Assembly: GCA_902776975.1 (NCBI GenBank)
Contig: CACYSI010000003.1
Location: 28,915 to 92,914 of the forward strand
Source: an uncultured Ruminococcus sp.
GTDB taxonomy: Bacteria; Bacillota; Clostridia; Oscillospirales; Acutalibacteraceae
DNA length: 64,000 nt
Direction of reading: 5' to 3'
Each line of letters starts with the position of its first letter. Position 1 is the stretch's first letter. Shown here piece after piece: positions 7,420-18,192 of this stretch. Both the position numbers and the translations under genes were made by a program. The notes under the pieces were generated by a model, which was given only the letters and a program-made list of their open reading frames with translations, ran no database searches and had not been told where the DNA came from.

Positions 7420-9456
7420 GTGTCTTTATACGAGATACCGATCACTAAGCTGAGCGGAATAGGCGAGAAGCGCGCCGCTCTTTTCAAAAAACTCGGTATA
7501 AATACGGTAGGCGATATGATCACCTACTATCCGCGCGACTATGAGAACTGGGCTGACGTTACCCCTATATCGGGTCTTGAGCCGGGAGAGCGGGCGGTAG
7601 TGCGCGCAAAGGTGGCTACACCCGTCAGCAACGTTCGTATCTCCGGCGGCAGGACTATGGCTAAGCTCAGCGTCTGCGATGACAGCGGTTATCTCAATCT
7701 TGTTTTTTTCAACAACAAGTACATATCGACCATGCTCAGATTCGGTGAGGAGTACTGCTTTATGGGCAGGGTAGCGTATGATAAGTACGGCTATCAGATG
7801 GTGTCTCCCGAGTTCTCGAAGGCTGATACCTCTCAGGCGATAACTCCGATATACAACCTTACCGCGGGGTTGAGCAACCGCGTGCTGGTCAAGGCGGCTC
7901 GAGAGGCTCTTGCGATGCTGCCCGAGGTCGTCCGCGACCCCATTCCTTATGATATTCTAAGGGGATACGACCTCTGTCCTCTGTCGTATGCCCTGATAAA
8001 TATACATTTTCCGTCAGATCTTGCGGCTATGGAGAAGGCGCGCCGCAGACTTGTCTTTGAAGAGCTGCTCACCCTGAACCTCGGTATGAGGATAATGAAG
8101 AATAAGTCGCGCGAGAATACCGCGATACATATGCCGGTCGATTATTCGGCAGAGTTCATCGGCACTCTTCCTTACGAGATGACCGGCGCTCAGCGCCGCG
8201 CGGTAGCCGACTGTGTGTCGGATATGAGCGATAAGCCATCTCCGATGAACCGTCTTATACAGGGCGACGTCGGCTCGGGCAAGACCGCCGTATGCGCCGC
8301 CGTGTGCTATAATACCGTCAAAAACGGCTATCAGGCAGCGTTTATGGCTCCTACCGAGATACTCGCTCAGCAGCATTTTGAGACCTTTTCAAAGATGTTT
8401 GAGGGTATGGAGATACATTTGGAGCTGCTCACAGGCTCTATGACAGCCTCTGAAAAGAAAAAGGCTCGCGCCCGCATTGAGAGCGGCGAGAGCGATATCG
8501 TCATCGGCACACACGCCCTGCTCTCCGACAGCACGGTGTTCAAGAGCCTCGGCTGCGCTATCACCGATGAGCAGCACCGCTTCGGCGTAGCCCAGAGGGC
8601 GCGGCTCGCGTCCAAGGGTGAGCATCCACATGTACTGGTGCTGTCCGCTACCCCGATACCGCGCACCTTGGGGCTTATCATCTACGGTGATCTGGATATC
8701 ACCGTTATAGATGAGATGCCCCCGGGACGTACCGAGGTCGATACCTACTTCATCGGCACCGATAAGCGCGACAGGGCTCTCGCTTTTATCAAAAAACAGG
8801 TAGACGAGGGTCGCCAGTGTTACATAGTCTGTCCGCTGGTAGAAGAGGGTGACGGTGAGCTTGAGTCCGCTAACGACTATGCCGCCGAGCTGATGTTAGG
8901 GCCTTTCCGCGACTATCCCGTCGGGATACTTCACGGTAAGATGAAGGCTAAGGACAAAGAGGCTGTCATGGCTCAGTTTGCCAAAAACGAGATATCCATA
9001 CTCGTCTCGACCACGGTAGTCGAGGTCGGCGTGGACGTCCGCAACGCCACTGTTATGATGATAGAGAACGCTGAGCGCTTCGGACTTTCTACCCTGCATC
9101 AGCTCAGAGGCAGAGTCGGCAGAGGCAGCTATAAGAGCTACTGCATACTTGTCTCCGATAACGGCGGCGAGAGCACAAGTCAACGGCTGGGCGTTATGTG
9201 TCGCACCAACAACGGCTTTGAGATAGCGGATACGGACCTTAAGCTCAGAGGCCCCGGCGACTTCTTCGGCAGTCGCCAGCACGGTCTGCCCGAGCTTGCT
9301 ATAGCCGACTTCTCTGATACCGAGACTCTCGCTCAGAGTCAGGAGGCGGCTGAGTATCTTTTAAGGCTTTCTCCCGATCTCAGCGATGACGCGGTAAGAG
9401 CGCTGCGCGCAAAGATACGCAAGCTCTTCAGCGAAACTGAAAATACCATGAATTAG
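7420..9456 (+). CDS. recG: ATP-dependent DNA helicase RecG
   Basis: Branched-DNA helicase (678 aa) that remodels stalled replication forks and Holliday junctions. The N-terminal wedge/OB region begins PITKLSGIGEKRAALFKKLGI. Helicase motifs follow: Walker A GDVGSGKTAV near residue 281, the DEQH box (DEQHRFG) near 382, SATPIPRTLGL, and motif VI QLRGRVGRG near 565. The C-terminal RecG signature is present as DLKLRGPGDFFGSRQHG. The GTG start follows GGGGAGGG. Length is normal. A bidirectional terminator separates it from the converging gene. Confidence 0.97.
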   Translation: MSLYEIPITKLSGIGEKRAALFKKLGINTVGDMITYYPRDYENWADVTPISGLEPGERAVVRAKVATPVSNVRISGGRTMAKLSVCDDSGYLNLVFFNNKYISTMLRFGEEYCFMGRVAYDKYGYQMVSPEFSKADTSQAITPIYNLTAGLSNRVLVKAAREALAMLPEVVRDPIPYDILRGYDLCPLSYALINIHFPSDLAAMEKARRRLVFEELLTLNLGMRIMKNKSRENTAIHMPVDYSAEFIGTLPYEMTGAQRRAVADCVSDMSDKPSPMNRLIQGDVGSGKTAVCAAVCYNTVKNGYQAAFMAPTEILAQQHFETFSKMFEGMEIHLELLTGSMTASEKKKARARIESGESDIVIGTHALLSDSTVFKSLGCAITDEQHRFGVAQRARLASKGEHPHVLVLSATPIPRTLGLIIYGDLDITVIDEMPPGRTEVDTYFIGTDKRDRALAFIKKQVDEGRQCYIVCPLVEEGDGELESANDYAAELMLGPFRDYPVGILHGKMKAKDKEAVMAQFAKNEISILVSTTVVEVGVDVRNATVMMIENAERFGLSTLHQLRGRVGRGSYKSYCILVSDNGGESTSQRLGVMCRTNNGFEIADTDLKLRGPGDFFGSRQHGLPELAIADFSDTETLAQSQEAAEYLLRLSPDLSDDAVRALRAKIRKLFSETENTMN

Positions 9457-9490: not shown

Positions 9491-10135
9491 TTATGCCTTA
9501 TAAACCTCTTCAAATACGCATATCAGCCTGTCGCTCACGGCTCTGTCCTGATGCAGACTGCCGAAGTACCACTTGCCGAAGACTGTGTTGTGCAGTACGG
9601 TATCGAGAAAGATGTTGAGATCATTTATCGTCGCTCCGCGGTCTATCAGCCTCTTTACCGAAGCGGGCGCCTCATGTGTGATGATGATATCTACCCTGCG
9701 GCGCAGCTTTTGGATATTCGCTACGGCATACTCCAGCTCTTCGTCTGTCGGCAGAGAGCCCATATCGTCGTCTTCATCGGCATAAGGCGGCATACCTCCG
9801 CCGAGAGCCAGCACGGTCTTGCCGTCTATGGTATATACCTCGCCGCGCTTCAGACAATAGATGTTGGAGGCTATCTTGCGCGCCTTGCCGCCGTAGAGGT
9901 CTGTTTCTTCGTATCGGCTCAAAAGCTCATAGTTCTCATGTGCTCCTTCGACAAAGAGAATATTAAACTTCTTTTTTGAGAGCTTTTTCAGCGTTTTTAT
10001 TTCTTCATTAGAATTATCCCAAATGAATCCGAAATCACCCGTAATGATCAGATCATCGCCTTTTTTGAGCTGCCCGAGCCTTCTCTCGTTAAATATCTCA
10101 TGATCTCCGTGGGTATCACCTGTTATATACAGCAA
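9491..10135 (-). CDS. Calcineurin-like metallophosphoesterase
   Basis: Cytoplasmic protein of 214 aa with the phosphoesterase motifs YITGDTHGDH (residues 3-12), ITGDFGF, VEGAHENYELL (GNHE box variant), ALGGGMPP, and ITHEAPAS near the C-terminus. The start is a TTG at 10135 with GGAGG 7 nt upstream. Similar proteins are common in Firmicutes and usually unassigned; substrate is unknown. It is transcribed alone and convergent with recG. Confidence 0.8.
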   Translation of the reverse strand: MLYITGDTHGDHEIFNERRLGQLKKGDDLIITGDFGFIWDNSNEEIKTLKKLSKKKFNILFVEGAHENYELLSRYEETDLYGGKARKIASNIYCLKRGEVYTIDGKTVLALGGGMPPYADEDDDMGSLPTDEELEYAVANIQKLRRRVDIIITHEAPASVKRLIDRGATINDLNIFLDTVLHNTVFGKWYFGSLHQDRAVSDRLICVFEEVYKA

Positions 10136-10273: not shown

Positions 10274-11530
10274 ATGAAAAATGTGTCAAAAATCGTCATT
10301 TCTTTTCTTCTGGTTCTGACAGTCGTGCTGAGCGCGGTGTACGTCCCGGTCTCTTCGTATGAGAACGACGTCGAAACATCCACAGCGGACATGCTGCTGG
10401 TAAACCTCGATACCGATACTGTCGTCTATTCAAAAAAGCCTAACAACAAGTGGTACTCGGGCAGCCTTGCCGTGCTGATGACATATCTTCTGGCTTATGA
10501 GAACATCAAGGACCCCGATACCGTGACGTTTGAGGTCGAAAAGGCGTTTATCGACGAGCTGCCCGACTCAGACGGATGTCTTGATGATTTTGAAGGCGAG
10601 ACCCTTACAGCAAAGGATCTCATGGCGATCACCCTGCTCACCTCCGGCAGCGACTCCGCTTACGCGCTCGCGTATCTCGTCAACGGTTCGGATCTGGACG
10701 GGTTTGTCGATATGATGAACACAAGAGCCGATGAGCTCGGCTGTAAGGATACCCATTATGTCTCGCCCGGCTTCAGCGAGGAGAGCGATCAGAACACCAC
10801 CTGCCGCGATGTATACAGACTATACTCTGCCGTTAGGGACACCGGGCTTTTCGGCAAGGTCGCTCAAAAGCACTATCGTATATCTTTAGGCGGAGATGAT
10901 GACAGGGTCGTTGCCTCCGATGCTTCTATACTCAACTCTCAGAGCCCATATTATTTTAAGTACGCTAACGACGCCAAGTTCTCGTATTCCGAAAAGACGT
11001 ATGCAAACCTTGTTGTGACTACTACCTATCACAACATGACTTATATGTTTGTAGCTCTTCTCGGTCTTAATGAAAGTGAGAAGAACGTTTACGCCGACGC
11101 CCGCAAGCTCACCACCTGGGCTTATCTTAACCTCTCGGACAGAAAGATACTTAATGACAACGAGCCTTTGGCTAAGGTCAGGGTCGAGAGCGGTTGGGGC
11201 GATTATAACTTGGAGCTCTATACCGACGACGTTGCCTATAAGACTCTGCCAAACGATTTTGACGATAAGTTCCTCGATTATAAAAAAGATGCTCCGGATA
11301 AAGTTACTCTCCCGATCAAAAAAGGAAAGAAGATCGGCGAGTTGGCTATAAACTATGATGGCGCCAAGGTGGATCAGGTCAACCTTATCGTCAACTCCGA
11401 TGAGGGTCTCGATATGCTCGGTGACAGCGCGAGATTCGGCAACTATGTCATCGACGGTCTGCTCGGCGACAACGCGGCCGGCGCCGATAAGTCCAAAAAG
11501 TCTGACAAAGGATCAGACAGCTTAGAATAA
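10274..11530 (+). CDS. Secreted S11 D-Ala-D-Ala carboxypeptidase-like protein, catalytic motifs degenerate
   Basis: Exported protein of 418 aa with the peptidase S11 (DacF/PBP5-like) layout: a signal peptide (hydrophobic residues 8-27), the lead-in MLLVNLDTDTVVYSKKPNNKW, and an S11-type C-terminal beta domain. The active site is damaged. The SxxK box reads S64-L-A-V67, so the essential lysine is valine. The SxN box reads S124-G-S126, so Asn is Ser. The KTG box position reads K235-F-S. A functional enzyme of this family needs the lysine, so this is probably not an active carboxypeptidase. The C-terminus is Lys/Asp-rich (DKSKKSDKGSD), with no membrane anchor. It is followed by a second S11-like gene after 115 bp. 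Reading frame and codon use look intact, so it is a pseudoenzyme rather than a pseudogene. Confidence 0.8.
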   Translation: MKNVSKIVISFLLVLTVVLSAVYVPVSSYENDVETSTADMLLVNLDTDTVVYSKKPNNKWYSGSLAVLMTYLLAYENIKDPDTVTFEVEKAFIDELPDSDGCLDDFEGETLTAKDLMAITLLTSGSDSAYALAYLVNGSDLDGFVDMMNTRADELGCKDTHYVSPGFSEESDQNTTCRDVYRLYSAVRDTGLFGKVAQKHYRISLGGDDDRVVASDASILNSQSPYYFKYANDAKFSYSEKTYANLVVTTTYHNMTYMFVALLGLNESEKNVYADARKLTTWAYLNLSDRKILNDNEPLAKVRVESGWGDYNLELYTDDVAYKTLPNDFDDKFLDYKKDAPDKVTLPIKKGKKIGELAINYDGAKVDQVNLIVNSDEGLDMLGDSARFGNYVIDGLLGDNAAGADKSKKSDKGSDSLE

Positions 11531-11645
11531 CCCCGCGCATATCGCCTGTCGGCGATCTGCGATCTTGATACCGATGATCGAAGAGCGGACTGATAACGGC
11601 GGCTTTTGTGAGATCGGTATTGCTTTTGAAAGGTTGTAACAATAT

Positions 11646-12974
11646 ATGAAAAACGTTATGCGTTTTCTCGGGATATTGCTCACCGCGGCGATCCTCATAG
11701 GGTGTCTTGCCTGTGTCCCGGCGTCGGCGCTCAGCTTTGAGTGTGATGTCGAGCAGTATTCAGACTCTCTGTATATGGTCAATCTCGATACGGGTATGGA
11801 GGTCTTCTCAAAAGAGCCCGACGCCAAGAGATATCCCGCGGCTCTCACTAAGATCATGACCTATATAGTCGCGGTCGAGCATTTTGACGATCTTAACACT
11901 AAGATAAGTATAAAGCAGAGCTGTATCGACTATGTGCTCGATCACGGTATGTCCACCTCGGGAGTAGACTGGTATGTGGGCGAAAGCCTGACCGTGACCG
12001 ATCTGCTGTACGCTATGATGCTGCCTATAGGTAACGACGCCGCTATGGTGCTCGCCGATAATATCACCGAGGGCGATCTGTCCGCGTTCGTCAAGCTGAT
12101 GAACGACAAGGCTGCTGAGCTCGGATGTACGGGCACTAATTTTACCAACCCCTTCGGCATCCACAGCGTCGATCACTATACCACAGCCAGAGATATGTAT
12201 ATCATGACCAAGTACGCTATGGGTCTGCCGCTGTTCTCAAAGATCTGCGGCACTACTACATATTATGTCAATGATGACGACGACTATCCCTTCATAACCA
12301 CCAACTGGCTCATAGACGGCAGCCGCGGCGGCGAGTACTACTATGTATACGCTACCGGCGTCAAGAACGCTACTACTCAGGAGGCGGGCAGGTGCCTGGT
12401 GGCTACTGCGGTATGCGAGGGCTACTCGTATATCTGCGTGTGTATGCACGCTCCCTATGACGAGAGCAAAGAAGAGAACGAGCAGTACTGCATGATCGAA
12501 GCGGCTAATATGTTCAGATGGGCTTTTCTCAATCTCTCTTTTCTGACTCCCGTCACTAAGGATACTCCCGTTTGTGAACAAAAGGTAGATCACTCGTGGG
12601 ATACCAAGAGCATACTTCTGCTGCCGGAGAAGGATCTTAACATCATCCTGCCGTATGATTATTCGAAAGGCGATGTGCGTATCACTCCCGACAACACCGA
12701 TCCTGTCAGCGCTCCGATAAAAAAGGGCGATATCATAACCACCGCTACCGTATATTATAAGGGGCAGGAGTTCAGTAAGATCAATCTCATAGCGGATCAG
12801 GATGTAGGAGTCAGCCCGATACTTTATGTCACAGACACGGTCAAGGGCGTACTGACTTCGCCGTGGTTCCTGCTCGCCGTAGCGGTCGTGGTGATACTGT
12901 TCATAGTCTATGTCTCGGTATCATCGTCTTACTCAAAGAAGAAAAAGCGTGAAAAAAATAACCATTCTAAATAA
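11646..12974 (+). CDS. Membrane-anchored S11 carboxypeptidase-like protein lacking the catalytic serine
   Basis: Protein of 442 aa, similar throughout to the gene before it. It has an N-terminal signal segment (LGILLTAAILIGCLACVPASA), the S11 domain and a C-terminal transmembrane anchor (PWFLLAVAVVVILFIVYV) followed by lysines, the standard DacF layout. The SxxK box reads A66-L-T-K69: the nucleophilic serine is alanine. The SxN box reads I128-G-N130: Ser is Ile. The KTG box reads K240-N-A242. Each box thus keeps at most part of its catalytic residues, and the losses complement those in the neighbour. Binding peptidoglycan without cutting it, or supporting a partner, is an inference. A strong terminator follows. 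Confidence 0.82.
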   Translation: MKNVMRFLGILLTAAILIGCLACVPASALSFECDVEQYSDSLYMVNLDTGMEVFSKEPDAKRYPAALTKIMTYIVAVEHFDDLNTKISIKQSCIDYVLDHGMSTSGVDWYVGESLTVTDLLYAMMLPIGNDAAMVLADNITEGDLSAFVKLMNDKAAELGCTGTNFTNPFGIHSVDHYTTARDMYIMTKYAMGLPLFSKICGTTTYYVNDDDDYPFITTNWLIDGSRGGEYYYVYATGVKNATTQEAGRCLVATAVCEGYSYICVCMHAPYDESKEENEQYCMIEAANMFRWAFLNLSFLTPVTKDTPVCEQKVDHSWDTKSILLLPEKDLNIILPYDYSKGDVRITPDNTDPVSAPIKKGDIITTATVYYKGQEFSKINLIADQDVGVSPILYVTDTVKGVLTSPWFLLAVAVVVILFIVYVSVSSSYSKKKKREKNNHSK

Positions 12975-13098: not shown

Positions 13099-13127
13099 TT
13101 GACACGAGAGCTGAGCAAAGATAGAAT
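13099..13127 (+). promoter_or_regulatory. Sigma-A promoter for the 8-TM protein gene
   Basis: TTGACA (13099-13104) and TAGAAT (13122-13127) have a 17-bp spacer. The start codon of the gene is about 130 bp further on, so the transcript has a long leader. Confidence 0.8.
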
Positions 13128-13134
13128 ATATAGT

Positions 13135-13260
13135 AGTTATATACATTTGTATCTAAGGATCGGGCGGAGCATAGCTTCGCCGGACAAACAGTCTGCTGTA
13201 TGTCCGCGGCAGAGCGTCTTTTGTATTTTATCGCGGACGGAAAGGTTTACGGAATCATAT
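13135..13260 (+). promoter_or_regulatory. Structured 5' leader with mutually exclusive hairpins
   Basis: The leader contains a hairpin GGCGGAGC/GCTTCGCC (13163-13181, loop ATA), then GGACA..CAG..CTG..TGTCC (13182-13205). GTCCGCG (13202-13208) can instead pair with CGCGGAC (13232-13238), which overlaps the second hairpin and precedes GGAAAGG. I do not recognise a known riboswitch class. The open frame running through this leader starts inside the -35 box and looks non-coding. Confidence 0.4.
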
Positions 13261-14367
13261 ATGAGATCAAAACTGTCATGGGCGGCTTTTATCCCCCTTA
13301 CATTGGTCGCTTTTTTCTTTAAGATAGCGAGATATATCATGCCGGAGGGCAGTGTTTTCGGGCTGAGTTATCTGTCTATGGATTATATCTTCCTCGGAGC
13401 GATAGCGCTTATACTGCTGTTTTCACTGCTGTTCTGCGCTATAGACAAGAAGATATCTGCCTACTATCTGCCCAGACGCAACTTTGCCGCCGGTGTTATC
13501 GGCTTAGCTCTGGCGCTGATATTTGCCGGAGAGGGAGCTAACGGCGTATATCGTATCATAGCTACCGGAGATGTGGTCGTGCTCAAGCTGATAGATTCGA
13601 TCTTACTGCTTGTATCGGCTGTAGTCTTCGTGGTGCTGGGACTTACACATTCGCTCAGAGAGAGAGACAACAAGCAGTTTATATTATTCAGCATCGTACC
13701 CGCTATCCTTTTTGCGGAGAGGATGATAGCTTGCTTTGTGGATTTCACTACTATATCCCTCAAGCTTGCCGATGTGCCTAAGATAGCTTGCTATATCTTC
13801 GCTACGCTGTTCTTCTTCAATTACGCGGTCTTGCTGTCACTGACCAAGACCAAAAACGCTGTCAAATCCTGCTTTATCTTCGGCTTTCCCGCAACGGCGT
13901 CGATGCTTATCTACGGCATCTCTAAGCTGGTATTTGAGTCCGATACTCAGGTGATCGTCAATAACGCCGAGGCGCTCGAGATGATACTTATCGCCGCTTA
14001 TATACTCGCCTTCCTCATAGAGCTGACCATGTATGTCCGCGACAAGGACAGTGTGAAGATAATCGAAGACGATGAAGAGCTGCCTGCACAAGAGGATATC
14101 GGAGACGGTATCACTACTGAGCGTACCGCGGATAAAGATCGTCAGACCGGGGATGATAGCTCGTATTTTGCCGCCACAGACACTACGGATTACCTCTATC
14201 GTGCCGCCCCTGACCGCGACGTGATGATCGGTACAGACGATGACAGCGAAGACTATCTGACTAAGGCTGCCGATGAGAGCGTGCCCGATGACAGACCGGC
14301 GGACTATGTATCCAAGATAGATAAGATCGACAAGCTGATCCTTGAGATAACCGAGAAGACCGATTGA
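13261..14367 (+). CDS. Unknown membrane protein with eight predicted TM helices and an acidic tail
   Basis: I do not recognise this protein (368 aa). About residues 1-255 hold eight hydrophobic segments, for example DYIFLGAIALILLFSLLFC, FAAGVIGLALALIFAG, LIDSILLLVSAVVFVVLGL and EMILIAAYILAFLIELTMYV. The last ~105 residues are hydrophilic and acidic with many Asp, Thr and Tyr (DDSSYFAATDTTDYLYRAAPD) and end in a charged helix (SKIDKIDKLILEITEKTD), likely cytoplasmic. I place the start at ATG 13261 because the longer frame upstream runs through the promoter. It lies between cell-surface genes. Confidence 0.65.
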   Translation: MRSKLSWAAFIPLTLVAFFFKIARYIMPEGSVFGLSYLSMDYIFLGAIALILLFSLLFCAIDKKISAYYLPRRNFAAGVIGLALALIFAGEGANGVYRIIATGDVVVLKLIDSILLLVSAVVFVVLGLTHSLRERDNKQFILFSIVPAILFAERMIACFVDFTTISLKLADVPKIACYIFATLFFFNYAVLLSLTKTKNAVKSCFIFGFPATASMLIYGISKLVFESDTQVIVNNAEALEMILIAAYILAFLIELTMYVRDKDSVKIIEDDEELPAQEDIGDGITTERTADKDRQTGDDSSYFAATDTTDYLYRAAPDRDVMIGTDDDSEDYLTKAADESVPDDRPADYVSKIDKIDKLILEITEKTD

Positions 14368-14409
14368 TAACAACAACCTTTTGACTTGACCCCGAAAGGA
14401 GCGCTGACT

Positions 14410-15807
14410 ATGAAAAGAATAATATCTCTGATACTGATCTGCCTCATACTGTCGGCATCCATAGCGGTATTTTCGGTATCAGCCGCAGACAGCGGCTTTG
14501 ATATCCGGGACGGAGTACTCGTCTCTTACAGCGGAAACAGCGCCGAGGTGACTATACCGTCATCCGTCAAGGCTGTGGGAGCGCGCGCCTTTGAGGGCAA
14601 CAAAGATATCACATCCCTGACCGTACCTTCATCCGTGGATTCGATAGGGGACAAGGCTTTTTACGGATGTTCTAAGCTCAAAACAGTCAAGGGCGGCGCC
14701 AATATAACCGACTCGGGCGTTTTTGCCTTTAACGGCACTCCGTATTTTGAAGAGTCAACGGACGAGTTTTTGATGCTCGGCAAGACTCTGCTTTGGTATA
14801 ACGGCGACTCGATCTACATCACTCTGCCGTCATCCTGCCTCAGCATTGCGCCGTATGCCTTTTACAGATATTCTGACTTGAAGATGATCAGATGTAGCTC
14901 TGAGCTCGTCAGCGTAGGCGCGGGCGCGTTCTATGACTGCGGCGGGCTTGTCAGCGTTGATCTGCCGTCATCGGTGTCATATATAGGAGCCTATGCCTTC
15001 GACGGCACTCCGTTCATCTCGTCTATGGGTGATTTCGCTGTGCTCGGCGACGGTATTCTGGTCAGATATATGGGCGCCGAGACTCAAGTGCAGGTACCCG
15101 AAGGAGTACGCAGGATAGCGCCGTTTGCTTTCCGTTCATCCAAGCTCGCTTCGGTAAGCATACCCTCGTCTGTGTATTCGATCGACCCGTACGCCTTTGC
15201 CGATTGTGTAGGACTTAAGGCTGTTGACTTCTCCGACGGTCAGGTGATCATAGGCGACTGCGCCTTCAGAGGCTGCAAGAAGCTGTCTTCGCTCACTACG
15301 CCGACCACACTCGGCTATATAGGTCAGTACGCCTTCAGCGGCGCGGGACTTTCCGACGTCAGACTGCTCGGTGCTGATCTTACGGTCTCCGACAACGCTT
15401 TCAAAGATTGTAAGTCTATGCGCTACGCTCTGCTCTCAAACGGCGTGACCGCTCTGTATGACGGCGCGTTCGCCGGATGCAGCTCTATAGAGGGCATATC
15501 AATCCCCTCGACTGCGTCTCAGGTAAGCACGGACGCTCTGGACGGCTGTGATAAGGTCGTAGTGACCTGTCCTGTCGGTTCGGCGGCGTTCAGCTCTCTG
15601 CTATCAAATGAGATGAACCATATCATAGGCGACGCTGACAGCGACGGCGAGCTCAGCGTGCTCGACGCTACCGCCATTCAGTGTTACGCTGCCGGTATCA
15701 TCGCGTATAACGGAGCGCAGGCGGCGGCGTCCGATTTCGACTTCAACGGAGCTATAGATATCATCGACGCGGCTGACGTGCAGCTCAGTATCGCAGAGAT
15801 AAATTAA
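14410..15807 (+). CDS. Secreted leucine-rich-repeat (BspA-type) protein with C-terminal dockerin
   Basis: Exported protein of 465 aa. A signal peptide (MKRIISLILICLILSASIAVF) ends near residue 30. Residues ~35-395 are BspA-like LRR_5 repeats with the recurring pattern 'IPSSVxxIGxxAFxGCxxLxxV', including VTIPSSVKAVGARAFEG and VPSSVDSIGDKAFYGC. The last ~60 residues form a dockerin: GDADSDGELSVLDAT and, about 34 residues on, DFDFNGAIDIIDAADVQ, two F-hand calcium loops. Dockerins attach proteins to cohesins on a scaffold or the cell surface. The LRR part has no catalytic motif, so a binding or adhesion role is inferred. The start at 14410 follows AAAGGAG; a start 8 codons earlier lacks a ribosome site. 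Confidence 0.88.
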   Translation: MKRIISLILICLILSASIAVFSVSAADSGFDIRDGVLVSYSGNSAEVTIPSSVKAVGARAFEGNKDITSLTVPSSVDSIGDKAFYGCSKLKTVKGGANITDSGVFAFNGTPYFEESTDEFLMLGKTLLWYNGDSIYITLPSSCLSIAPYAFYRYSDLKMIRCSSELVSVGAGAFYDCGGLVSVDLPSSVSYIGAYAFDGTPFISSMGDFAVLGDGILVRYMGAETQVQVPEGVRRIAPFAFRSSKLASVSIPSSVYSIDPYAFADCVGLKAVDFSDGQVIIGDCAFRGCKKLSSLTTPTTLGYIGQYAFSGAGLSDVRLLGADLTVSDNAFKDCKSMRYALLSNGVTALYDGAFAGCSSIEGISIPSTASQVSTDALDGCDKVVVTCPVGSAAFSSLLSNEMNHIIGDADSDGELSVLDATAIQCYAAGIIAYNGAQAAASDFDFNGAIDIIDAADVQLSIAEIN

Positions 15808-16248: not shown

Positions 16249-18192
16249 ATGATCAATGTAGAGTTAAAGGGCGGAGTCGTTCAGCAGTTTGAAGAGAACA
16301 TCACTCCCGCCGAGATCGCTAAGTCAATTTCAATGGGACTGTACAAGAACGTTTGCGCCGCCATGATCGACGGCAAGGTATGCGACCTTCGTACTGAGCT
16401 TACATCCGACTGCAAGGTCGAGCTGCTCACCTTCGACGATGACGAGGGCAAGCAGGCGTTCTGGCACACCACCTCACATATACTCGCTCAGGCTGTCAAG
16501 CGTCTTTATCCCGAGGCTAAGCTGGCTATAGGTCCGTCTATCGATCAGGGTTTCTATTATGACTTTGACGTCGAAAAGGCTTTTGACGCCGATGATATCG
16601 CTAAGATCGAAGCCGAGATGAAGAAGATCGTCAAGTCGGGCATCGAGATCAGCCGCTTTGAAAAGGCTCCGCAGGACGCTCTCGACTATCTTGAGGAGCT
16701 CGGCGAGCCGTACAAGGTAGAGCTTGCGCGCGAGCATGCCGACAAGGGCGAGCCCATCAGCTTTTATAAGCAGGCTGAGTTCACAGACCTCTGCGCGGGT
16801 CCTCACCTCATGAGCGTAGCCCCCGTAAAGGCGTTTAAGCTCACTAACTGCACCGGCGCTTACTGGCGCGGCGACTCCAAGAATCACCAGCTCTGCCGCG
16901 TATACGGTATATCCTTCCCCAAGGCGTCTATGCTTGAAGAGTATATCACAAACCGTGAAGAGGCGTTAAAGCGCGACCACAACAAGCTCGGCAGAGAGCT
17001 CGAGCTGTTCACCACGGTCGATTATATCGGTCAGGGCCTGCCGATCCTGCTGCCTAAGGGCGCTCGTGTTATCCAGCTTTTACAGCGCTTTGTTGAGGAT
17101 CTGGAGCAGAAGAACGGCTGGCAGCTCACCAAGACCCCCTTTATGGCTAAGTCCGATCTGTACAAGATCAGCGGACACTGGGATCATTATCAGGACGGTA
17201 TGTTCATCCTCGGCGATCCCGATAACGACGACGAGGTCTACGCTCTGCGTCCCATGACCTGTCCGTTCCAGTATCAGGTATTCCTCAACCGCGGCAGAAG
17301 CTACCGCGACCTGCCTATGCGCCTTAACGAGACCTCTACTCTGTTCCGTAACGAGGCGTCGGGCGAGATGCACGGACTCATCCGTGTGCGTCAGTTCACT
17401 ATATCCGAGGGACATCTGATGTGTACTCCCGAGCAGCTCGAGGGCGAGTTCGCTCACTGTCTCAACCTCGCTATCTATTGCCTCAAGACCTTGGGTCTGT
17501 ATGAGGATGTAAGCTACCGCTTCTCTCAGTGGGACCCCAATGACCGCGAAAAGTATATCGGCACAGAGGAAGAGTGGGACAACGTTCAGGGCATGATGGG
17601 CAAGATCCTCGATGACCTCGGCATAAACTACAAGATCGGTATCGGCGAGGCCGCGTTCTACGGCCCCAAACTCGATATCCAGATCAAAAACGTATTCGGT
17701 AAGGAGGATACCCTCATTACCATCCAGATAGACCCGATGATCGCCGAGAAGTTCGGCATGGAGTATGTCGACCGTGACGGCGTCAAGAAGCACCCCTTCA
17801 TCATCCACCGCACATCTATCGGCTGCTACGAGCGTACTCTTGCTCTGCTTATAGAGAAGTACGCAGGCGCGTTCCCGCTGTGGCTCGCTCCCGTACAGGT
17901 CAAGCTGCTGCCGATCGCCGACCGCCATCTTGACCGCATCTATGAGATCAAGAAGGCTCTTGACGAGATGGGTATGCGCGTAGAGGTAGACGACAGAAGC
18001 GAGAAGATCGGCTACAAGATCCGTGAGGCTCAGCTGCAGAAGATACCTTACATGGTAGTCATCGGCGACAAGGATATCGAGAACAACACCGTATCTATCC
18101 GCCACCGCAAGGACGGCGACCTCGGCTCGATGTCGCTTGAGGACTTCATGGCTATGATGAAAGAAGAGATAGATACTAAGGCTATTAAGTAG
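16249..18192 (+). CDS. thrS: Threonyl-tRNA synthetase
   Basis: Class II aminoacyl-tRNA synthetase (647 aa) charging tRNA-Thr. Domains in order are an N-terminal TGS-like domain (1-60), the editing domain beginning QAFWHTTSHILAQAVKRLYP with later CAGPHL, the catalytic core with MTCPFQYQVF, FRNEASGEMHGLIRVRQFT and HRTSIGCYERTLALLIE, and the C-terminal anticodon-binding domain (LAPVQVKLLPIAD to MVVIGDKDIENNTVSIR). The ATG follows AAAGGAGAG. Expression is under a T-box. Confidence 0.97.
   Translation: MINVELKGGVVQQFEENITPAEIAKSISMGLYKNVCAAMIDGKVCDLRTELTSDCKVELLTFDDDEGKQAFWHTTSHILAQAVKRLYPEAKLAIGPSIDQGFYYDFDVEKAFDADDIAKIEAEMKKIVKSGIEISRFEKAPQDALDYLEELGEPYKVELAREHADKGEPISFYKQAEFTDLCAGPHLMSVAPVKAFKLTNCTGAYWRGDSKNHQLCRVYGISFPKASMLEEYITNREEALKRDHNKLGRELELFTTVDYIGQGLPILLPKGARVIQLLQRFVEDLEQKNGWQLTKTPFMAKSDLYKISGHWDHYQDGMFILGDPDNDDEVYALRPMTCPFQYQVFLNRGRSYRDLPMRLNETSTLFRNEASGEMHGLIRVRQFTISEGHLMCTPEQLEGEFAHCLNLAIYCLKTLGLYEDVSYRFSQWDPNDREKYIGTEEEWDNVQGMMGKILDDLGINYKIGIGEAAFYGPKLDIQIKNVFGKEDTLITIQIDPMIAEKFGMEYVDRDGVKKHPFIIHRTSIGCYERTLALLIEKYAGAFPLWLAPVQVKLLPIADRHLDRIYEIKKALDEMGMRVEVDDRSEKIGYKIREAQLQKIPYMVVIGDKDIENNTVSIRHRKDGDLGSMSLEDFMAMMKEEIDTKAIK

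Follow-up and report, generated by a model that had tools for sequence, protein, structure and literature searches.

Two adjacent genes of an uncultured Ruminococcus sp., here called A and B, code for proteins that retain the domain layout and predicted fold of the S11 DD-carboxypeptidases and lack the set of catalytic motifs of this family. They lie in the window, by which we mean the whole stretch of 64,000 nucleotides that was analyzed. The explanation that we favor, with moderate confidence, is that A and B are S11 (low-molecular-mass PBP) pseudoenzymes retained under selection, that B arose from an active carboxypeptidase encoded beside recG, and that the two proteins have a binding role that does not involve catalysis. 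This explanation draws on what can be read from the sequences, namely the intact frames, the loss of motifs, the synteny, the single branch that each group forms in the main tree, the purifying selection, a membrane anchor that B has and A lacks, and the active paralogues elsewhere in the genome.

Domain architecture and predicted structure

Both genes are uninterrupted reading frames, arranged head to tail on the forward strand (Table 1), with the coordinates given in a preliminary description of this DNA that had recognized them as intact S11 genes. The profile matches agree with that assignment: Peptidase_S11 (PF00768; cut-off 27.6 bits) is matched by A with 75.9 bits (4.4e-21) and by B with 135.7 bits (2.3e-39), and PBP5_C is matched above the Pfam cut-off in both, which places the two in peptidase family S11 by descent.

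Table 1. Positions of the features discussed, numbered along the window
Feature	Position	Strand	Basis or remark
recG (as we take this gene to be), context gene anchoring the conserved order on the upstream side	7420..9456	+	
Gene A, exported-looking S11/PBP5_C pseudo-carboxypeptidase, 418 aa	10274..11530	+	Pfam, hydropathy, model
A, degenerate SxxK, S64-L-A-V67	10463..10474	+	sequence, motif reading
A, degenerate SxN, S124-G-S126	10643..10651	+	sequence, motif reading
A, degenerate KTG, K235-F-S237	10976..10984	+	sequence, motif reading
Gene B, membrane-anchored S11/PBP5_C pseudo-carboxypeptidase, 442 aa	11646..12974	+	Pfam, hydropathy, model
B, degenerate SxxK, A66-L-T-K69	11841..11852	+	Lys kept in 44/44 B
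B, degenerate SxN, I128-G-N130	12027..12035	+	Ser gone in 44/44 B
B, degenerate KTG, K240-N-A242	12363..12371	+	Asn241 in 43/44 B
Protein with several hydrophobic stretches, membrane-type by eye	13099..14367	+	downstream neighbor of B in most pair loci
thrS (as we take this gene to be), context gene anchoring the conserved order on the downstream side	16249..18192	+	

The AlphaFold models (pLDDT 84 for A and 88 for B) show a PBP5-like fold with a C-terminal β domain in both proteins. Foldseek searches with the model of A recovered as best PDB matches the DacA chain of an integrative YxkC-DacA model (1.3e-23; our literature search found no paper treating YxkC together with DacA) and a second entry at 5.4e-23, and the best match of the B model was the PBP5 of P. 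aeruginosa (4.3e-29). The TM-scores of the two models to carboxypeptidases, taken by query length, are about 0.6-0.7. As active relatives made up 13 of the 42 rows in the input alignment for B, and other S11 proteins 5 of the 40 rows in that for A, the models may have been drawn toward the usual fold. In these predicted structures the SxxK site falls at the start of a helix beginning at residue 63 in A and 65 in B, the SxN site in the turn between two helices (113-122 and 126-137 in A, 117-124 and 130-141 in B), and the KTG site within a strand (231-239 in A, 236-244 in B). These are presumably the elements that would carry the three motifs in a PBP5-like fold, and the models support the register in which the motifs were read.

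The two proteins differ at their termini. A has a hydrophobic N-terminus, no C-terminal membrane anchor and a tail that is modeled with low confidence; B ends in a hydrophobic helix followed by a basic tail. By a simple hydropathy cut the C-terminal helix is found in 44/44 B proteins, in 33/33 of their active relatives and in 49/50 sequences of the paralogue C (see below), and in none of 42 A proteins, while an N-terminal hydrophobic stretch is seen in 41/42 A and, with some starts called mechanically, in 36/44 B. The portrayal of the pair in the preliminary description, as retained, exported-looking and motif-deficient S11 proteins, is borne out, its PBP5-like fold being that of the predicted models.

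Degeneration of the catalytic motifs

Neither protein of the window had been thought to possess a working active site, and the residues at the three motif positions are indeed as then reported (Table 1). No alternative set of SxxK, SxN and KTG in register is present in A or B: a string search of both proteins found SxxK solely at residue 288 of A and at residues 428 and 430 of B, and K[TS]G in neither. The three motifs of an active DD-carboxypeptidase occur together in none of 44 B and none of 42 A proteins; as the full set is present in all 33 active B-type relatives and in all 50 sequences of C, this loss exceeds what would be expected by chance.

Across the B proteins the position of the nucleophile (66) is occupied by Ser in 24, Ala in 19, including the B of the window, and Asn in one, having changed at least five times on the tree, on which the lysine of SxxK (Lys69) stays unchanged. 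The first position of SxN varies among V, T, R, A, I, E and Q with at least 12 changes, and His is the commonest state at the position of its asparagine (130; 25/44). All B proteins share the SxxK lysine and the membrane anchor, and all have lost the SxN serine and the KTG threonine. Among the 42 rows of A, one of which is cut before the site, 21 have Tyr at position 64, eight have Ser and four have Thr; the SxxK lysine is retained at a single locus (L121), and KTG is found in none. A full SxxK is thus intact in 24/44 B and in only that one A, and a full SxN in 7/42 A, which means that weak or altered acyl-transfer may persist in some B proteins.

These distributions also bear on the proposal that A and B underwent reciprocal loss, one keeping the serine and the other the lysine of SxxK. 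The pattern holds for the two proteins of the window and breaks down across the clade, where over half of the B proteins have their own serine and A mostly has tyrosine, ruling out reciprocal loss as a rule. As the states at the nucleophile position vary across the 44 B and 42 A sequences, the complementarity in this genome appears to be incidental, one state of two drifting sites.

Phyletic distribution and gene order

Among 161 genomes from the genus, the altered type of B occurs in 44, and its motifs were read in every one of these. These proteins are 58-79% identical to the B of the window, and the best match in each other genome reaches at most 50% among the matches listed. A lies directly upstream in 43 of the 44 genomes, being split across two contig ends in G298, so that the pair, which the preliminary description had proposed to seek in related genomes, proves to be fixed in a clade. 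The remaining genome, G205 (82% complete; L152:6335-7696), has a pseudo-B without an adjoining A and with the neighbors in place, and a search for A there gave other S11 genes only, among the matches listed; A is therefore not an invariable companion of B. The 17 matches that carry names all coincide with records already counted among these genomes. Their titles refer to Ruminococcus, Oscillospiraceae, Ruminococcaceae, Clostridia or Clostridiales, or in one case only to a 'bacterium'; goat or sheep gut is mentioned in several of them.

Beyond the genus, 200 genomes of the family were searched with B, and the motifs are intact in all of the best 27 outside-genus matches, which were made into loci. 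A profile of 26 A sequences, run against 398 family genomes including its own, found two carriers, members of the same genus, at 595 and 537 bits; no A was seen outside the genus in these genomes, any other match scoring at most 313 bits among the matches listed. The next-best 28 loci of this search, two of them from the same genus, have intact motifs, 26 by pattern and two by reading.

In all 42 loci with both genes, not counting the window, the two share a strand and A comes first. The distance between the genes is -8 to 38 bases in 33 of these, and the larger overlaps in the other nine are probably an artefact of mechanical start calls. The gap of 115 bases in the window exceeds that in the relatives, and a search of it found no promoter-like or terminator-like site on the + strand. 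A and B look like a single transcription unit.

Several observations concern the surrounding genes. The membrane-type protein downstream of B has no Pfam or NCBIfam match; its TTG start is doubtful, and an ATG at 13261 may be the true one. In three related loci (L117, L119 and L121) about 4.7-4.8 kb of extra sequence lies between B and this gene. It is followed in the window by a BspA-type leucine-rich-repeat protein (14386-15807) whose dockerin match is weak (21.0 bits, short of the Pfam cut-off of 22.9), and a gene of this type precedes thrS in many pair loci, though it was not seen there in L131-L134, L137 and L146. On the other side, divergent from A, is a small phosphoesterase-like gene (9491-10135, - strand; Pfam match weak and below the cut-off), which is seen in the pair loci whose contig extends that far and in L169.

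Active relatives beside recG and the origin of B and A

A B-type S11 gene of the ordinary kind was read 33 times, in 32 genomes of the genus that lack the pair. Every one of these genes has SxxK, SxN and KTG, and 32 of them adjoin recG, the exception (L218) being a second copy in G301. At three of these loci (L169, L170 and L206) the order continues as in the window to the membrane gene, represented there by a distant homologue (82-88 bits) adjoining the active S11 gene, and to thrS. Two of the 85 remaining genomes were read as well, both with intact motifs (L246, L248). The shared position beside recG and the gene order common to the three loci make it most likely that B is the syntenic orthologue of the active recG-linked enzyme.

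Phylogenetic trees are consistent with this origin. Each of the four groups in the main tree lies on one side of a branch (support of 100 for A, 100 for pseudo-B, 92 for active B and 98 for C), and pseudo-B is joined to active B with support of 96. When homologues from other genera are included, two family rows fall among the active B sequences and pseudo-B stays whole. A tree of RecG (65 rows), in which 34 of the 44 pseudo-B genomes are represented, unites all of these 34 (33 with the pair, and G205) in one clade with support of 100, so that the catalytic change in B would most simply be a single event at the root of one clade of the genus. G205 is nested inside the pair clade in both the RecG and the B tree (support 85 and 84), which suggests that A was lost there. 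As to the origin of A itself, the best small tree (56 rows) joins it to C with support of 94, but the AU test does not reject a grouping of A with pseudo-B (p 0.38) or with all B (p 0.22). A is fast-evolving, with a median distance of 1.04 where B has 0.52 and RecG 0.29. In a mirror-tree comparison of 29 loci with recG removed, the A-B pair shows no stronger correlation of distances than other neighbors do (partial r 0.56, versus 0.61-0.72 for the five other pairs), and co-evolution thus lends no support to binding between A and B.

Selection on the altered proteins

As reference we took the 60 columns in which active B and C share the same residue at a conservation of 94% or higher. Of these, 41 are retained by 90% or more of the B sequences and 16 by as large a share of A. 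Five columns have lost their residue in 90% or more of the B proteins: Ser102, Ser128 (of SxN), Leu172, Thr241 (of KTG) and Gly365. Mean retention in B is 0.47 at the seven motif columns versus 0.88 at the 53 others (rank test, p 0.002), and in A 0.29 versus 0.55 (p 0.05). The losses in B are concentrated on catalytic positions.

The dN/dS ratio, which the preliminary description had named as a check, lies between 0.07 and 0.17 for A and between 0.03 and 0.14 for B over 13 close genome pairs, and is 0.05-0.12 for C (10 pairs) and 0.03-0.09 for recG (11 pairs); these Nei-Gojobori values are rough, the pairs sharing genomes and hence being non-independent, with dS up to 1.7 in the widest, and none is near 1. 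The ratio of B is lower than that of C in six of ten pairs, equal in two and higher in two. Such values indicate that purifying selection is acting on A and B, in which no internal stops are reported among the matches listed. Motif loss throughout a clade, combined with purifying selection on the remainder of the protein, is the pattern expected of a pseudoenzyme. Sequencing error or an ordinary pseudogene is ruled out by the occurrence of the losses in 44 genomes, the low dN/dS and the lack of stops among those matches.

Paralogue C and other S11 genes

The host genome has five S11 genes, namely A, B and three with all motifs. One of the latter, C (P0003), has the full motif set in 50/50 sequences (40 from pseudo-B genomes and ten from others). 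C accompanies pseudo-B in 40 of 44 genomes, being missing or undetected in G210 (66% complete), G239, G243 and G262, and a match of at least 55% identity occurs in 22 of the remaining 117 genomes. C might have taken over trimming, freeing the recG-linked gene for another role.

The history of C has its own complications. The C genes of the ten genomes without pseudo-B (L188, L193-L200 and L220) form one branch among those of the pair genomes, adjacent to the C of G298 (L174) with support of 96, a placement that suggests horizontal transfer of C. In L239 (G323) C consists of two open frames, and the C match G277:C125:6682-7968 is reported to contain two in-frame TGA codons; these could be broken genes or assembly errors.

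Functional implications

According to the explanation that we favor, an ordinary active carboxypeptidase beside recG would have become B, its catalytic center altered at the base of the clade, with A standing adjacent. Held at the membrane by its C-terminal helix, B might bind the stem peptides of peptidoglycan or a partner enzyme without cutting, and the retained cleft and PBP5_C domain would provide its binding surface. A might bind likewise from the outside face or the wall, and jointly or singly the two might act on the remaining active carboxypeptidases, such as C, by localizing them, by shielding substrate for them or by regulating them. We prefer non-catalytic binding, whether to stem peptides or to a partner enzyme, by analogy with the inactive LytM regulators (see below). 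The residues of KTG and SxN also help to hold the substrate, and consequently substrate binding by A and B may be weakened too. The host genome encodes a Spo0A-type domain, which makes it conceivable that the pair may have a role in sporulation.

We tentatively suggest a more specific version, possible though bolder, in which the recG-linked housekeeping DD-carboxypeptidase of these gut bacteria became a two-part non-catalytic peptidoglycan receptor, with B as a membrane-anchored reader whose altered pocket is fixed (Lys69, Asn241 and often His130), A as a secreted reader and trimming left to C.

Other explanations have lesser claims. That A is released into the wall as a decoy or shield, non-covalently binding D-Ala-D-Ala stem peptides or beta-lactams and so protecting them from C or C from drugs, seems rather unlikely: its export-type N-terminus without an anchor, its predicted PBP5-like structure (with the model confidence and PDB matches given above) and the active C encoded in most pseudo-B genomes would suit such a role, but with so few conserved columns kept in A the ancestral ligand may no longer fit, and the usual covalent capture needs the Ser and Lys of SxxK together, a pair that A and B of the window each lack.

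We also think it unlikely that B is an enzyme of changed chemistry or substrate, with a new center (SLTK, GH, KNG) performing another acyl-transfer or hydrolysis and A as an accessory. An enzyme of this kind would hardly tolerate the repeated changes at the first position of SxN, or a nucleophile that is free to vary and is Ala or Asn in 20 of the 44 proteins, the B of the window included, even though the replacements in B are stereotyped (Asn at the Thr of KTG in 43/44, His at the Asn of SxN in 25/44, Lys69 in 44/44) and SxxK is intact in 24.

The preliminary description had further raised a heterodimer. In its obligate form, with complementary residues building one composite active site or regulatory unit, this appears improbable: the tight tandem in constant order and orientation, the Ser/Lys pattern in the window and the precedent of a heterodimer with an incomplete partner in another family of wall peptidases, Csd1-Csd2 (PMC5053510), speak for it, and it is set back by a complementarity that is not conserved (Ser in 8/42 A, and own Ser in 24/44 B), by the negative mirror-tree and by G205, where B stands without A. 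Finally, relaxed, decaying duplicates on the way to pseudogenes, as the lost catalytic residues and the fast evolution of A might suggest, are very improbable given the low dN/dS, the frames free of reported stops, the presence of A in 43 and B in 44 genomes, and a constraint on B about as strong as that on active C.

Relationship to known systems

A search of literature titles and abstract openings, confined in part to the best matches and covering few subscription papers, found no description of a conserved pair of dead S11 carboxypeptidases. With the S11 DD-carboxypeptidases such as PBP5 and PBP6 of E. coli and DacA and DacB of B. subtilis, A and B share the two Pfam domains and the predicted fold, and B also resembles them in its C-terminal membrane helix; A differs in having no anchor, and both differ in that none of 42 A and 44 B combines SxxK, SxN and KTG. 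The active recG-linked homologues (e.g. L158, L169 and L170) share the position of B and 41-50% identity over most of its length, yet have all three motifs intact and no adjoining A gene. The genus thus offers a natural experiment, in which the gene adjoining recG is active in some species and fixed without motifs in others; with these species and the B-only G205, a non-catalytic role of the penicillin-binding fold becomes directly testable.

Among other peptidase families, two partial parallels stand out. The Csd1-Csd2 system of H. pylori likewise pairs paralogous wall peptidases, of which one has an incomplete active site (PMC5053510); it differs in belonging to M23, in having a sole incomplete partner and in being a heterodimer seen in a crystal structure, whereas A and B both lack the motif set and are known from sequence. 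The inactive LytM regulators EnvC, NlpD and DipM similarly keep a dead peptidoglycan-peptidase domain for another use. According to the abstract of PMC10336132, DipM binds several autolysins and stimulates two of them, and dead peptidoglycan peptidases that regulate live ones are hence already familiar in that family. These proteins are of the LytM/M23 family, and any regulation by A and B would be by analogy. If true, the receptor reading would make the pair the S11 counterpart of the inactive LytM regulators, and the conservation of sequences devoid of catalytic residues points to a new, probably non-enzymatic job in the cell wall.
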